Origin: Myxococcaceae bacterium | Lineage (GTDB): Bacteria > Myxococcota > Myxococcia > Myxococcales > Myxococcaceae | DNA: 64,000 bases | Assembly: GCA_017881265.1 (NCBI GenBank) | Contig: JADGRA010000080.1 | Span: 124,001 to 188,000, forward strand | Reading direction: 5' to 3' | Shown: positions 13,034 through 17,910 of the stretch, one piece after another | How the letters are laid out: each line of letters begins with the position of its first letter | Position numbering within the stretch: position 1 is the stretch's first letter | The notes under the pieces: generated by a model | The model's database searches: none | Seen by the model: only the letters and a program-made list of their open reading frames with translations | What the model was told of the DNA's origin: nothing | Position numbers and translations under genes: made by a program

Positions 13034-13525
13034 GTGACTCTCTGGCTTCGCCTCGCACGACTGGCGCTGCTGCTGCCATGCATTGCCGGCTGCCGGCGCG
13101 GCCCCGAGTTCTGCTACTTCGACGGGACGAGCATCGGGGTGACGCCCTTGCCCATGGTGGCCATTCACGCGGACGGGACCCTGGACCCGGAGAGTCGCTA
13201 CAGCTGGCAGGAATTCCCCTGGCCAACGAATCCCCAAGTCGACACCGTCCAGCACGTCGCGCCGGCGTGGGTATTTCGCGGAAGCACGGGCGGGGCGGCG
13301 TGGAGCTTCAGCGGTACCTTCTCCGGCCCAGCCAGCGCCTTCGTGCGAACGGCGCAGCAGGGCAGTCCGCCGGCGATGGACGTCCAGGGGCTGAAGGGAC
13401 GGCCGGTGCTGATGCGCTACCGCGTGAAGCCCTGCCGGCAATTCGAAGGGAGCAAGACGGGCGCGCGCACCTGCCTCAGCTGGGGCCGGGAGCTGAATGC
13501 GCAGACGAAGCTGCACTGCGACTGA
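13034..13525 (+). CDS. Lipoprotein of unknown function
   Basis: Starting at GTG 13034 the 163-residue product opens with a lipoprotein signal: a basic end, a Leu-rich core and the lipobox CIAGC (Cys20). The mature part is rich in Trp, aromatic residues and Gly, and has paired cysteines, suggesting a compact beta domain. I recognise no family. The open frame extends further upstream, but that stretch is antisense to the TPR gene, so the lipobox fixes the start. It is divergent from the large TPR gene. Confidence 0.75.
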   Translation: MTLWLRLARLALLLPCIAGCRRGPEFCYFDGTSIGVTPLPMVAIHADGTLDPESRYSWQEFPWPTNPQVDTVQHVAPAWVFRGSTGGAAWSFSGTFSGPASAFVRTAQQGSPPAMDVQGLKGRPVLMRYRVKPCRQFEGSKTGARTCLSWGRELNAQTKLHCD

Positions 13526-13613
13526 AGGCGCTAGGGTGTCCGCCCTCAAGCACCCGGGGAGAGAACGTGCCGGCGGGCGTCAGGGGTCCCCCTTCCCCGG
13601 CCGCCGGAGAGTC

Positions 13614-13641
13614 GTCAACCTACCGGCGAAGAGAGGTTGAC
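13614..13641 (+). promoter_or_regulatory. Predicted BirA biotin operator upstream of bioB
   Basis: A perfect 8-bp inverted repeat, GTCAACCT (13614-13621) and AGGTTGAC (13634-13641), is separated by 12 bp. It is the shape of the BirA operator known from many bacteria (arms of the GTAAACC/GGTTTAC type with a 14-16 bp spacer). Read as GTCAACC-N14-GGTTGAC it matches with G/C-shifted arms. The right arm also forms a -35-like TTGACA (13637-13642), so BirA-biotinyl-AMP binding would block RNA polymerase. It lies about 80 bp before bioB. Confidence 0.72.
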
Positions 13642-13720
13642 AAGCGAGGGGGGCTGGTCGAGCGTCGTGGCTTCAGCCCGAAGACCTCCCGAGCAACAGC
13701 AGAAAGGCAGACGGCCCACC

Positions 13721-14731
13721 GTGTCCCTTCCCGCGCATGCCGAATCTCCGGCCACCCTCCCGCACGGCGTCGTCCTCCGCCATGACTGGACGCTCGCGGA
13801 AGTCCGTTCGCTGCATGACCTTCCCCTCTTGGAGCTGCTGTACCGCGCCCAGACGGTGCACCGGGCGAGCTTCGGAGAGCATCGCGTGCAGCTCTGCTCG
13901 CTGTTGTCCATCAAGACGGGCGGCTGCCCGGAGGACTGTGCCTACTGTCCGCAGGCCGCTCGCCACCACACGGGCGTTGCGGCCGACAAGCTGCTGACCG
14001 AGACGGACGTCTTGGAAGCGGCAACCCGAGCGCGCGCCGCCGGGGCGACGCGCTTCTGCATGGGCGCCGCGTGGCGGGAGGTGAAGGACGGCCCGCAGTT
14101 CGAGCAGGTGCTGGGCATGGTGCGGGGCGTCCGGGCCCTCGGCATGGAGGCCTGCTGCACGCTGGGGATGCTCACCGAGTCCCAGGCGCATCGCCTCGCC
14201 GAGGCCGGGCTCACCGCCTACAACCACAACCTCGACACCTCGGCCGAGTTCTACGGGGAAATTATCTCCACCAGGACGTACCAGGACCGCCTCCGGACGC
14301 TGCGGCACGTGCGCGCCGCCGGCATCAACGTCTGTTCCGGCGGCATCCTCGGCATGGGCGAGTCGGTGGAGGACCGCTGCGGGATGCTGCTCACCCTCGC
14401 CAACCAGCCCACCCACCCCGAGTCGGTGCCCATCAACGCGCTGGTGGCAGTACCCGGCACGCCGCTCGAGCACCAGCGGCCGGTCGAGCCGGTGGAGATG
14501 GTGCGTGTCATCGCCACCGCGCGGCTGCTGATGCCGTTGGCCATGGTGCGGCTGTCGGCCGGACGGCTGTCGATGAGCCGGGAGGCGCAGCTGCTGTGCA
14601 TGATGGCTGGCGCGAACTCGCTCTTCTTCGGCGAGAAGCTGCTCACCACCGACAACCCGGAATACGCCGACGACATGGCGCTGTTGGCTGCGGCCGGCGT
14701 GAAGCCGCTCGAACCGTACGCCGGGCGATGA
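13721..14731 (+). CDS. bioB: Biotin synthase
   Basis: BioB is a radical SAM enzyme that inserts sulfur into dethiobiotin, the last step of biotin synthesis. The SAM cluster cysteines are C69-x3-C73-x2-C76 ([10 protein letters not shown]). Further cysteines for the sulfur-donating [2Fe-2S] cluster lie in [18 protein letters not shown] and [10 protein letters not shown] chose GTG 13721, giving 336 residues, typical for BioB. The frame is open to TTG 13637, but that start would lie inside the BirA operator. The stop overlaps the bioF ATG (ATGA), so the two are translationally coupled. Confidence 0.96.
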
Positions 14732-15909
14732 GCGGGGTGGCGAGCCGGTGGGCGGAAGAGGACCTCGCCGAGCTGGCGTCCCGCGGGCTGCGACGCACCC
14801 TCGAGCCCCTGGACTCGCCACAGGGGCCGGTGGTCCGCGTGGGCAGCGAGTCCCTGCTGAATTTCTCCTCCAACGACTACCTCGGCCTGGCAGCGCACCC
14901 CGCGGTGGTGGCCGCGGCGCGCTCCGCCCTGGAACGCTGGGGGATGGGGACCGGCGCCTCGCGGCTGGTGGTGGGAGACACCGGGGCGCACCGGGCGCTG
15001 GAGGCGCGGCTGCGACACTTCGAGGACGCCGAGGCGGTGCTGCTCTTCAACAGCGGCTACGCCGCAAACCTCGGACTCCTGCCCGCGCTGTTGGGCAAGC
15101 TGGACGCCGTCTTCTCCGACGCGCTCAACCACGCGAGCCTGGTGGACGGCTGTCGCCTCTCTCGGGCCCAAGTCCAGCTGTACCCCCACTGTGACGTCGC
15201 AGCGCTGGCCGCGCTTCTGCAAAGCACGCCAGCCCGACGCAAGCTGGTGGTGACGGACAGCGTCTTCTCCATGGATGGGGACGTGGCACCCCTGGCCGAC
15301 GTGGTGGAGGTCTGCCGCCGGGCCGGAGCGGCGCTGCTGGTGGACGAGGCGCACGCCACCGGCGTCCACGGTGAGCGCGGGGCGGGCCTGTGCGAGGCCC
15401 TGGGCCTCACCCGCGCGGTGGACGTGCGCATGGGGACGCTGGGGAAAGCGCTCGGCACCTTCGGTGCCTATGTCGCGACCAGCGCGCCGCTGGCCGACCT
15501 GTTCGTCAACCGGGCCCGCTCGCTCGTCTTCTCGACGGCGCTGCCGGCGTCCACCTGCGCGGCGGCCGAGGCCGCGGTGCAGCTGGTGGAGCACGACGGC
15601 GAGCTGCGCGCGCGATTGTGGCGCAACATCCACACTTTCGCCAGTGGCCTGCGGGCGCTGGGCCACCCGGCCCAGCCCACCTCCGCCATTTTCCCGGTGC
15701 AGCTTGGCTCCGCGGAGCGTGCCGTGGCCGCCGCGGCCTTCCTCCGGGCCCGCGGTCTTTTGGTGAAGCCCATCCGTCCACCGACGGTCCCAGTGGGCAC
15801 CAGCCGGCTCCGCTTTGCCCTGTCCGCCGCCCACACCCCGGCCCATCTGCAGCTAGCGCTCGACGCGCTACAGGACTTGAAGGCCCATGGACTCCTCGTC
15901 GCGGCATGA
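14728..15909 (+). CDS. bioF: 8-amino-7-oxononanoate synthase
   Basis: BioF is a PLP enzyme that condenses pimeloyl-ACP/CoA with L-alanine to give 8-amino-7-oxononanoate. The 393-residue product shows the alpha-oxoamine synthase pattern: [14 protein letters not shown] near the start, the GSRL-type GASRLVVGD segment, [16 protein letters not shown] with the PLP-binding Asp and His, and the Schiff-base Lys in [15 protein letters not shown] 14728 overlaps the bioB stop by 4 nt, so coupled translation is likely. The 3' end overlaps bioA by 23 nt. Confidence 0.96.
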
Positions 15910-17239
15910 ACGGCTGCTCCGGCTGGACCGGACGCACGTCTGGCACCCCTTCACGCAGATGCAGGAATGGCCCACCGACGAGCCACTCGTCATCGAGCGC
16001 GCCGAGGGCAACTACCTCATCGACGACCTCGGCCGCCGCTACCTCGACGGCGTCTCGTCGCTGTGGTGCAACGTCCACGGCCACCGCAAGCGGGAGCTCG
16101 ACGACGCCATCCGGGCGCAGCTCGACCGCGTCGCTCACACCACGCTGCTCGGGCTGGCCTCGGTGCCCTCCATCGAATTGGCGGCGGAGCTGGTGCGCCT
16201 GGCTCCACCCGGGCTGACGCGCGTCTTCTTCTCGGACTCCGGGAGCACCGCGGTGGAAGTCGCGCTGAAGATGGCCTTCCAGTGCTGGCGCCAGCGCGGC
16301 CGGCCGGAGAAGTCCCGCTTCGTGGCCCTGCAGGAGGCCTATCACGGCGACACGGTGGGGAGCGTCTCGGTGGGGGGGATGGAACTCTTCCACGGCACCT
16401 TCCGCGGCTTGCTGTTTCAAGCGGAACGAATTCCGACGCCTTACGCCTACCGCTGGACGGGTCCGGGGGACTGCGGGGCGGCCTGTCTGGACGTCGCCGA
16501 GCGGGTATTTGCCGAGAAGGGGCACCAGTTGGCGGCGCTGGTGGTGGAGCCGCTGGTGCAGGGCGCCGCGGGGATGCTCACCCAGCCGCCCGGCTTCCTC
16601 CGCCGGCTGGCGGAGCTGTGCCGGCAGCACGAGGTGCTGCTCATCTGCGACGAGGTGGCCACCGGCTTCGGGCGCACCGGGACGCTGTTCGCGGTGGAGC
16701 AGGAGCAGGTGCGCCCGGACTTTCTTTGCCTGGCCAAGGGGTTGAGCGGCGGCTACCTCCCGCTCGCCGCGACGCTCACCACCGAGTCGGTGCACGAGGC
16801 CTTCCTCGGGGACGTCGCCAGCCAGCGCACCTTCTTCCACGGGCACACCTTCACCGGAAACCCCCTTGCCTGCGCGGCCGCGCTGGCCAGCCTGCGTCTC
16901 TTCGAGACGGAGCACGTGCTGGAGCGGCTCCAGCGGACGCTGGCCGCGCTCGCGCCGAAGCTGGCCCGCATCGCCGAGCTCCCGCACGTGGGAGAGGTAC
17001 GCCAGCGAGGCGCCATGGTGGGCATTGAATTGGTGCAGGACCGGCGCACCAAGGCGAGCTACCCGACGGCTGAGCGCATCGGCCACCGGGTTTGCCTCGC
17101 AGCGCGCCGTCACGGCGTGCTGCTGCGTCCGCTCGGGGCCGTGGTGGTGCTGATGCCGCCGCTGTCCCTCACCATGGAGGAGGCGGCCGTCCTGGGCGAC
17201 GCCGTCCACGCGGCCATTGCCGAGGTGACCGGCCCGTGA
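15887..17239 (+). CDS. bioA: Adenosylmethionine-8-amino-7-oxononanoate aminotransferase
   Basis: BioA is a class III PLP aminotransferase that makes 7,8-diaminopelargonate using SAM as amino donor. The 450-residue product begins with HVWHPFTQM, the BioA-specific N-terminal motif. It has [16 protein letters not shown] for phosphate binding, [14 protein letters not shown] with the PLP-binding Asp, and the Schiff-base Lys in [17 protein letters not shown] late [17 protein letters not shown] fits the class. ATG 15887 lies inside the end of bioF, and the stop overlaps bioD (GTGA). Confidence 0.96.
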
Positions 17240-17910
17240 GGGAGCTCCCGCGCTACTTCGTCACCGGCACGGACACTGGCGTCGGGAAGACGGAAGTCGC
17301 CGCTGCGCTGCTCTCGCTGATGGCCGACGCCGGCCTCGCCCCGGGAGTCCTCAAACCCTATGAGAGTGGGTGCACGGACGTGGAGCGCCCGCCGGACGCC
17401 CTCGCCCTGCGCGCCGCCGCCCGGAGCGAGGACGCGCTGGACAAAATCTCCCTGCACCGCTTTCGCGCTCCGCTCGCACCCGGCATCGCCGCCGAGCGGC
17501 TGGGTCTCAACCCCTCCTGGGCGGAGACGCTGAAGGCGTTCCGGGCCTTTCAGGGCCGGGCCCTGGTGGTGGAGGGCGCAGGGGGTCTCCTCGTCCCCCT
17601 GGACCGGCACCACCAGGTGATTGACCTCATCGCCGCGACGCGCCTGCCGGTGGTGCTGGTGGCCCGCGCCGGCCTCGGCACGCTGAACCACACCGGCCTC
17701 TCCCTCCTCGCCCTGCGGGCCCGGCGCCTCCGCGTCCGGGCGGTGGTGCTGGTGCGCACCTCGGCGGTCCGGGACGCAAGCGTCGCCGACAACCGGCGCT
17801 GGCTGCAGCGCCGGGATGCGGTGGAGGTGCTGGGGCCCGTCCCCTTCGTCCCCGAGGCGGCGGCTCGCCGGGCGGCCTTCCGCCAGCAGCTGCGCTCGCT
17901 GGTGGGATGA
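17236..17910 (+). CDS. bioD: ATP-dependent dethiobiotin synthetase
   Basis: BioD closes the ureido ring of dethiobiotin from diaminopelargonate, CO2 and ATP. The 224-residue product has the P-loop FVTGTDTGVGKTEVA at residues 8-22, the substrate loop VLKPYESG, and VVEGAGGLLVPL (Mg and ATP binding). GTG 17236 overlaps the bioA stop by 4 nt. It is the last gene of the bioBFAD operon; bioC and bioH are not in the window. A hairpin follows 18 nt after the stop. Confidence 0.95.
   Translation: MRELPRYFVTGTDTGVGKTEVAAALLSLMADAGLAPGVLKPYESGCTDVERPPDALALRAAARSEDALDKISLHRFRAPLAPGIAAERLGLNPSWAETLKAFRAFQGRALVVEGAGGLLVPLDRHHQVIDLIAATRLPVVLVARAGLGTLNHTGLSLLALRARRLRVRAVVLVRTSAVRDASVADNRRWLQRRDAVEVLGPVPFVPEAAARRAAFRQQLRSLVG

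Follow-up and report, generated by a model that had tools for sequence, protein, structure and literature searches.

A very probable BirA operator overlapping a candidate promoter upstream of bioBFAD in a member of the Myxococcaceae

Results

A four-gene biotin operon with a single regulatory gap

We analyzed a 64,000-nucleotide stretch of the genome of a Myxococcaceae bacterium, referred to here as the window, in which four genes for biotin synthesis, bioB, bioF, bioA, and bioD, follow one another on the plus strand (Table 1). All four products score above the cut-offs of their respective NCBIfam models, and the open frame of bioB extends back to position 13637. On the 5' side, a plus-strand open frame that found no match in Pfam or NCBIfam searches ends at 13525. 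The overlaps between bioB, bioF, bioA, and bioD leave the 195-bp gap (69% GC) 5' of bioB as the operon's sole regulatory gap, as an earlier sequence-only reading of this DNA had proposed. NCBIfam searches of the same genome for BioC and BioH returned matches below cut-off only, the best BioC-like protein reaching 90 of the 185 bits required.

Table 1. Features of the bioBFAD locus, in window coordinates
Feature	Position	Strand	Basis
BirA-type operator, TCGTCAACC-N14-GGTTGACAA	13612..13643	+	Sequence; conserved upstream of bioB in 107/130 regions; matches deltaproteobacterial sites in Table 1 of PMC545781
Candidate -35, TTGACA	13637..13642	+	Inside the operator right arm; TTGAC is the best-conserved stretch; in relatives, a -10 follows after 17 bp
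Candidate -10, GAGCGT	13660..13665	+	17-bp spacer; agrees with TATAAT at A2 and T6 only
bioB, biotin synthase	13721..14731	+	TIGR00433, 388 bits (cut-off 225); radical SAM and BATS domains; GTG start inferred
bioF, 8-amino-7-oxononanoate synthase	14728..15909	+	TIGR00858, 443.9 bits (cut-off 426); ATGA overlap with bioB
bioA, DAPA aminotransferase	15887..17239	+	TIGR00508, 550 bits (cut-off 405); start within the end of bioF
bioD, dethiobiotin synthase	17236..17910	+	TIGR00347, 122.5 bits (cut-off 83); GTGA overlap with bioA; start inferred

The gap contains a dyad of the BirA type

Within this gap lies the perfect dyad GTCAACCT-N12-AGGTTGAC, found exactly where the sequence-only reading had placed it, at 13614-13641. 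Read with the nine-base arms used in the literature, it becomes the longer element of Table 1, which scores 17/18 against the BirA box consensus when the C/G variant at position 5 is allowed. The published BirA signal is TTGTAAACC-[N14/15]-GGTTTACAA (Rodionov et al. 2004, PMC545781), and its deltaproteobacterial version is given there as TTGTcAACC-[N14]-GGTTgACAA, in which the inner variable position is C in one arm and G in the other (PMC545781). The earlier description of the dyad as a GC-shifted form of the known BirA operator thus stands as regards BirA but not as regards a shift, since the deltaproteobacterial sites are listed with C and G and this is the usual form of the wider group (PMC545781). 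The closest comparison is with Geobacter and Desulfuromonas, whose BirA operators share the arms GTcAACC...GGTTgAC, the 14-base spacer, the position before bioB, and a birA gene located elsewhere in the genome (PMC545781). The Desulfuromonas bioB site, acGTcAACC-[N14]-GGTTgACAA at -94, differs from that of the window at one arm position, the left arm here starting with TC rather than AC (PMC545781, Table 1); the center of the window site sits 93.5 bases before the GTG start inferred for bioB. Unlike the Geobacter and Desulfuromonas sites, that of the window belongs to a different bacterial group and precedes a bioBFAD operon. It is a new instance of an already known kind of operator, and as such ordinary biology.

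A pattern search allowing up to three mismatches found a single exact copy of GTCAACCT-N12-AGGTTGAC in the window's own 4.4-Mb genome. The next-best match has two mismatches (C36:97854-97881, on L002); no biotin gene was recognized beside it, where the nearest minus-strand frame is L002:659-1273. All other matches have three mismatches, and a control search with the reversed pattern yields five matches; we treated the remaining ones as chance and rejected them as further BirA targets in this genome.

The dyad is conserved upstream of bioB across the order

Perfect dyads with eight-base arms are not rare in themselves: the window contains 27 with spacers of 10 to 14 bases, six of them with a 12-base spacer, and one turned up in 61 of 2000 mononucleotide shuffles of the 195-bp gap (≈3%). 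The significance of this one therefore lies in its sequence identity, its position, and its conservation. For the last of these, we searched 145 genomes of the same order, found bioB above cut-off in 131, and scored the upstream DNA of 130. The remaining genome (G068) was left out, its bioB being truncated at the 5' end, and for two others (G092 and G004) the 5' fragment of the gene was used. Scoring covered 18 arm positions with spacers of 13 to 16 bases, and at least 15/18 was counted as a site. By this measure the dyad is present in 107 of the 130 regions, whereas the arm-reversed control reached at most 12/18; the best region below threshold scored 14/18. Sequence, spacing, and position are conserved over 31 genera, 28 with a strong BirA DNA-binding domain and three in which birA was not found. 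This conservation makes a functionless chance dyad, which the abundance of perfect repeats in the window might otherwise suggest, so improbable that we give it practically no weight.

The exact pattern GTCAACC-N13-16-GGTTGAC occurs in 60 of the 145 genomes, a count that underestimates conservation because 48 of the 84 sites in the window's own family (f1) carry CGTTGACAA as the right arm. In a set of 80 loci, 42 were scored, picked by organism name so as to include all recognizable Myxococcota, and four of these (L008-L011) reach a site score of 16 or 17; L007, with one of the most similar BioB proteins (75%), lacks a site.

Members of another family, f3, have a second exact dyad at around position 1501 of loci L090, L097, and L098, beside open frames that carry alpha/beta-hydrolase or methyltransferase domains. 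These frames are BioH- and BioC-like candidates, which suggests that the biotin regulon of f3 may comprise two operons.

The genome encodes a BirA with an N-terminal winged helix

The sequence-only reading had predicted repression by a BirA with an N-terminal DNA-binding domain. The genome yields one match to the biotin protein ligase family and one birA gene (G000:C58, L006:1453-2493, minus strand), encoding 346 amino acids. The protein has an HTH_11 domain at residues 15-68 (47.6 bits against a cut-off of 25), a BPL_LplA_LipB domain at 99-221, and a BPL_C domain at 286-331, all above their Pfam cut-offs; the prediction is borne out, and this N-terminal winged helix, central ligase, and C-terminal domain make up the layout of a group II (bifunctional) biotin protein ligase. 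The protein also aligns with the solved bifunctional BirA chains 6apw_A (5.9e-45), 1bia_A (1.1e-39), and 3rir_A, in alignments that span its length from residue 13-18 on, including the DNA-binding domain.

Among the NCBIfam models, the ligase model TIGR00121 gives 196 bits (cut-off 83), the repressor-domain model TIGR00122 gives 50.2 bits (cut-off 70), and the whole-protein models for bifunctional BirA also score below cut-off, NF008848 with 235 of 362 bits. The TIGR00122 cut-off is narrow: only two of 14 control genomes pass it and, within the order, 0 of 145, so we do not take the low score to mean that the domain is missing.

Operator and BirA DNA-binding domain occur together and are lost together

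We sorted the compared genomes by hand into classes according to the domain next to the ligase. The presence of the dyad follows that of the BirA DNA-binding domain. With a strong domain (at least 45 bits), a site is found in 104 of 107 genomes; with a weak domain (30-41 bits), in none of 10; and with no domain match, in none of eight. Two genomes with matches at E ~1e-4 (G143 and G038) were kept apart and also lack a site, bringing the three site-less classes to 0/20, a number that counts related genomes rather than independent events, with absences outside genus g23 being family-level. Where birA was not found or was present only as a fragment (G121, G026, and G032), the site is there in all three. 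The three strong-domain genomes without a site are G082, in which the left arm is lost, and G055 and G041, whose upstream regions are among those shortened by contig ends: that of G055 stops 62 bases upstream, and that of G041, which has a 47-bit domain match, shows no site within the 323 bases available.

Other biotin regulators are known to occupy BirA's place. BioQ, of the TetR family, does so in actinobacteria, and the boxes of BioR and BioQ are short palindromes of different sequence. The GntR-family BioR replaces BirA in alphaproteobacteria (PMC5343134). That such a regulator acts on the present dyad is nonetheless highly improbable, because both the arms and the spacer of 14-15 bases match BirA and because the dyad vanishes along with the BirA DNA-binding domain.

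Genus g23, which belongs to the window's own family (G125-G127; L248-L250, L218, L222, and L223), lacks both the winged helix and the bioB operator in all three genomes, and just 33-46 codons are open before the ligase match of its birA. We count g23 as one clear case of joint loss. Its genomes are small, at 2.1-2.7 Mb.

A group of birA 5' ends, from families f2, f5, f6, and f9 (L254, L255, and L258-L264), encodes a winged helix-like N terminus whose recognition helix is without the motif SR[TA]AVWK, and these genomes have no BirA dyad before bioB. In place of the motif, f2 has PRAELLK (PRAELLKRI) and f6 has PRVAVFK or PRVELFR. As to an alternative operator, the best 10-base inverted repeats before bioB in f2, f4, f5, f6, f8, f9, and g23, compared by eye, share no evident sequence. 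We consider it an even call whether the BirA switch of the order has been dismantled repeatedly in two ways, through loss of the winged helix (in g23 and also in f4, g44, and g46) or through a change of the recognition helix, with the operator gone. If so, the BirA proteins with a changed helix would carry a DNA-binding domain that either recognizes a different sequence or has stopped binding DNA.

The right arm coincides with a candidate -35 element

The sequence-only reading had noted TTGACA in the right arm of the dyad and taken it for a -35 hexamer. The hexamer does lie inside the nine-base arm, although its last A falls one base beyond the 13614-13641 interval. A scan of 13500-13800 with the sigma-70 consensus found no full promoter, and the window's own -10 is weak; its GAGCGT is also the hexamer of genus g21. 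When the f1 sites are aligned on the right arm, the sole strongly conserved downstream column is an A 26 bases further along, with a T four bases later, and the resulting xAxxxT lies 17 bp from TTGACA in 60 of the 84 sites. Weighted by genus, its frequency at this distance is 0.42, compared with a mean of 0.02 and a maximum of 0.09 at other offsets. In f3, all 22 sites have a TA-rich hexamer at a spacer of 16-18 bp. The overlap of operator and -35 element is thus supported comparatively, by the -10 conserved at 17 bp in relatives, and weakly by the window alone.

BirA might instead bind away from the promoter, with the true promoter elsewhere in the gap and repression by a roadblock or by leader effects. 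The poor GAGCGT and the empty consensus scan would fit such an arrangement, but it leaves unaccounted for a -10-like element that keeps its distance from the right-arm TTGAC, exactly 17 bp in f1 and 16-17 bp in f3, enriched up to 30-fold over other offsets, and a search of 13300-13900 matched no Rfam family; we regard it as unlikely. With that search empty, a riboswitch or leader RNA was rejected as a candidate.

In the f3 upstream regions (L228-L245), inspection by eye places the ATG of bioB often ≈5-15 bases after the putative -10. The bioB mRNA of f3 may for this reason be nearly leaderless.

Discussion

E. coli BirA is a repressor-ligase with an N-terminal winged helix, and its operator, bioO, is an inverted repeat that lies over the promoter, has arms of the TTGTAAACC type, and serves two divergent promoters. 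The window resembles this system in having a winged-helix repressor-ligase and an inverted repeat over a candidate promoter, and differs from it in having one promoter, with the -35 inside the right arm. BirA regulons have been reported in gamma- and deltaproteobacteria, and the available text of the same source contains no name beginning with "Myxococc" (PMC5343134).

We conclude that the dyad before bioBFAD is very probably a BirA operator, an on/off switch that blocks the promoter at high biotin. Two checks named by the sequence-only reading, a winged-helix BirA in the genome and a dyad conserved before bioB of related species, turned out as it expected; its observation is confirmed and its interpretation supported, with small corrections. 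The site and its conservation, the co-occurring BirA domain, the conserved -35/-10 spacing that relatives share, the operon, and the birA gene were observed here; onto these we project the ligand, dimerization, and repression established for E. coli and other BirA proteins. By that analogy, with ample biotin and few apo-carboxylase molecules still to be biotinylated, BirA loaded with biotinoyl-5'-AMP would dimerize, and the two N-terminal winged helices of the dimer would each occupy one half-site. The right half-site doubles as the candidate -35 of the bioB promoter, so that a bound dimer would exclude RNA polymerase and bioBFAD would fall silent. When biotin is scarce, BirA would be monomeric and act as a ligase while bioBFAD is transcribed, so that carboxylase demand for biotin would relieve repression.

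The locus offers this group a clean, testable biotin switch, and comparison with relatives links the operator's right arm to the -35 element. That the operator and the BirA DNA-binding domain are present and lost together across the order is a neat natural control, although what it confirms is an established mechanism.
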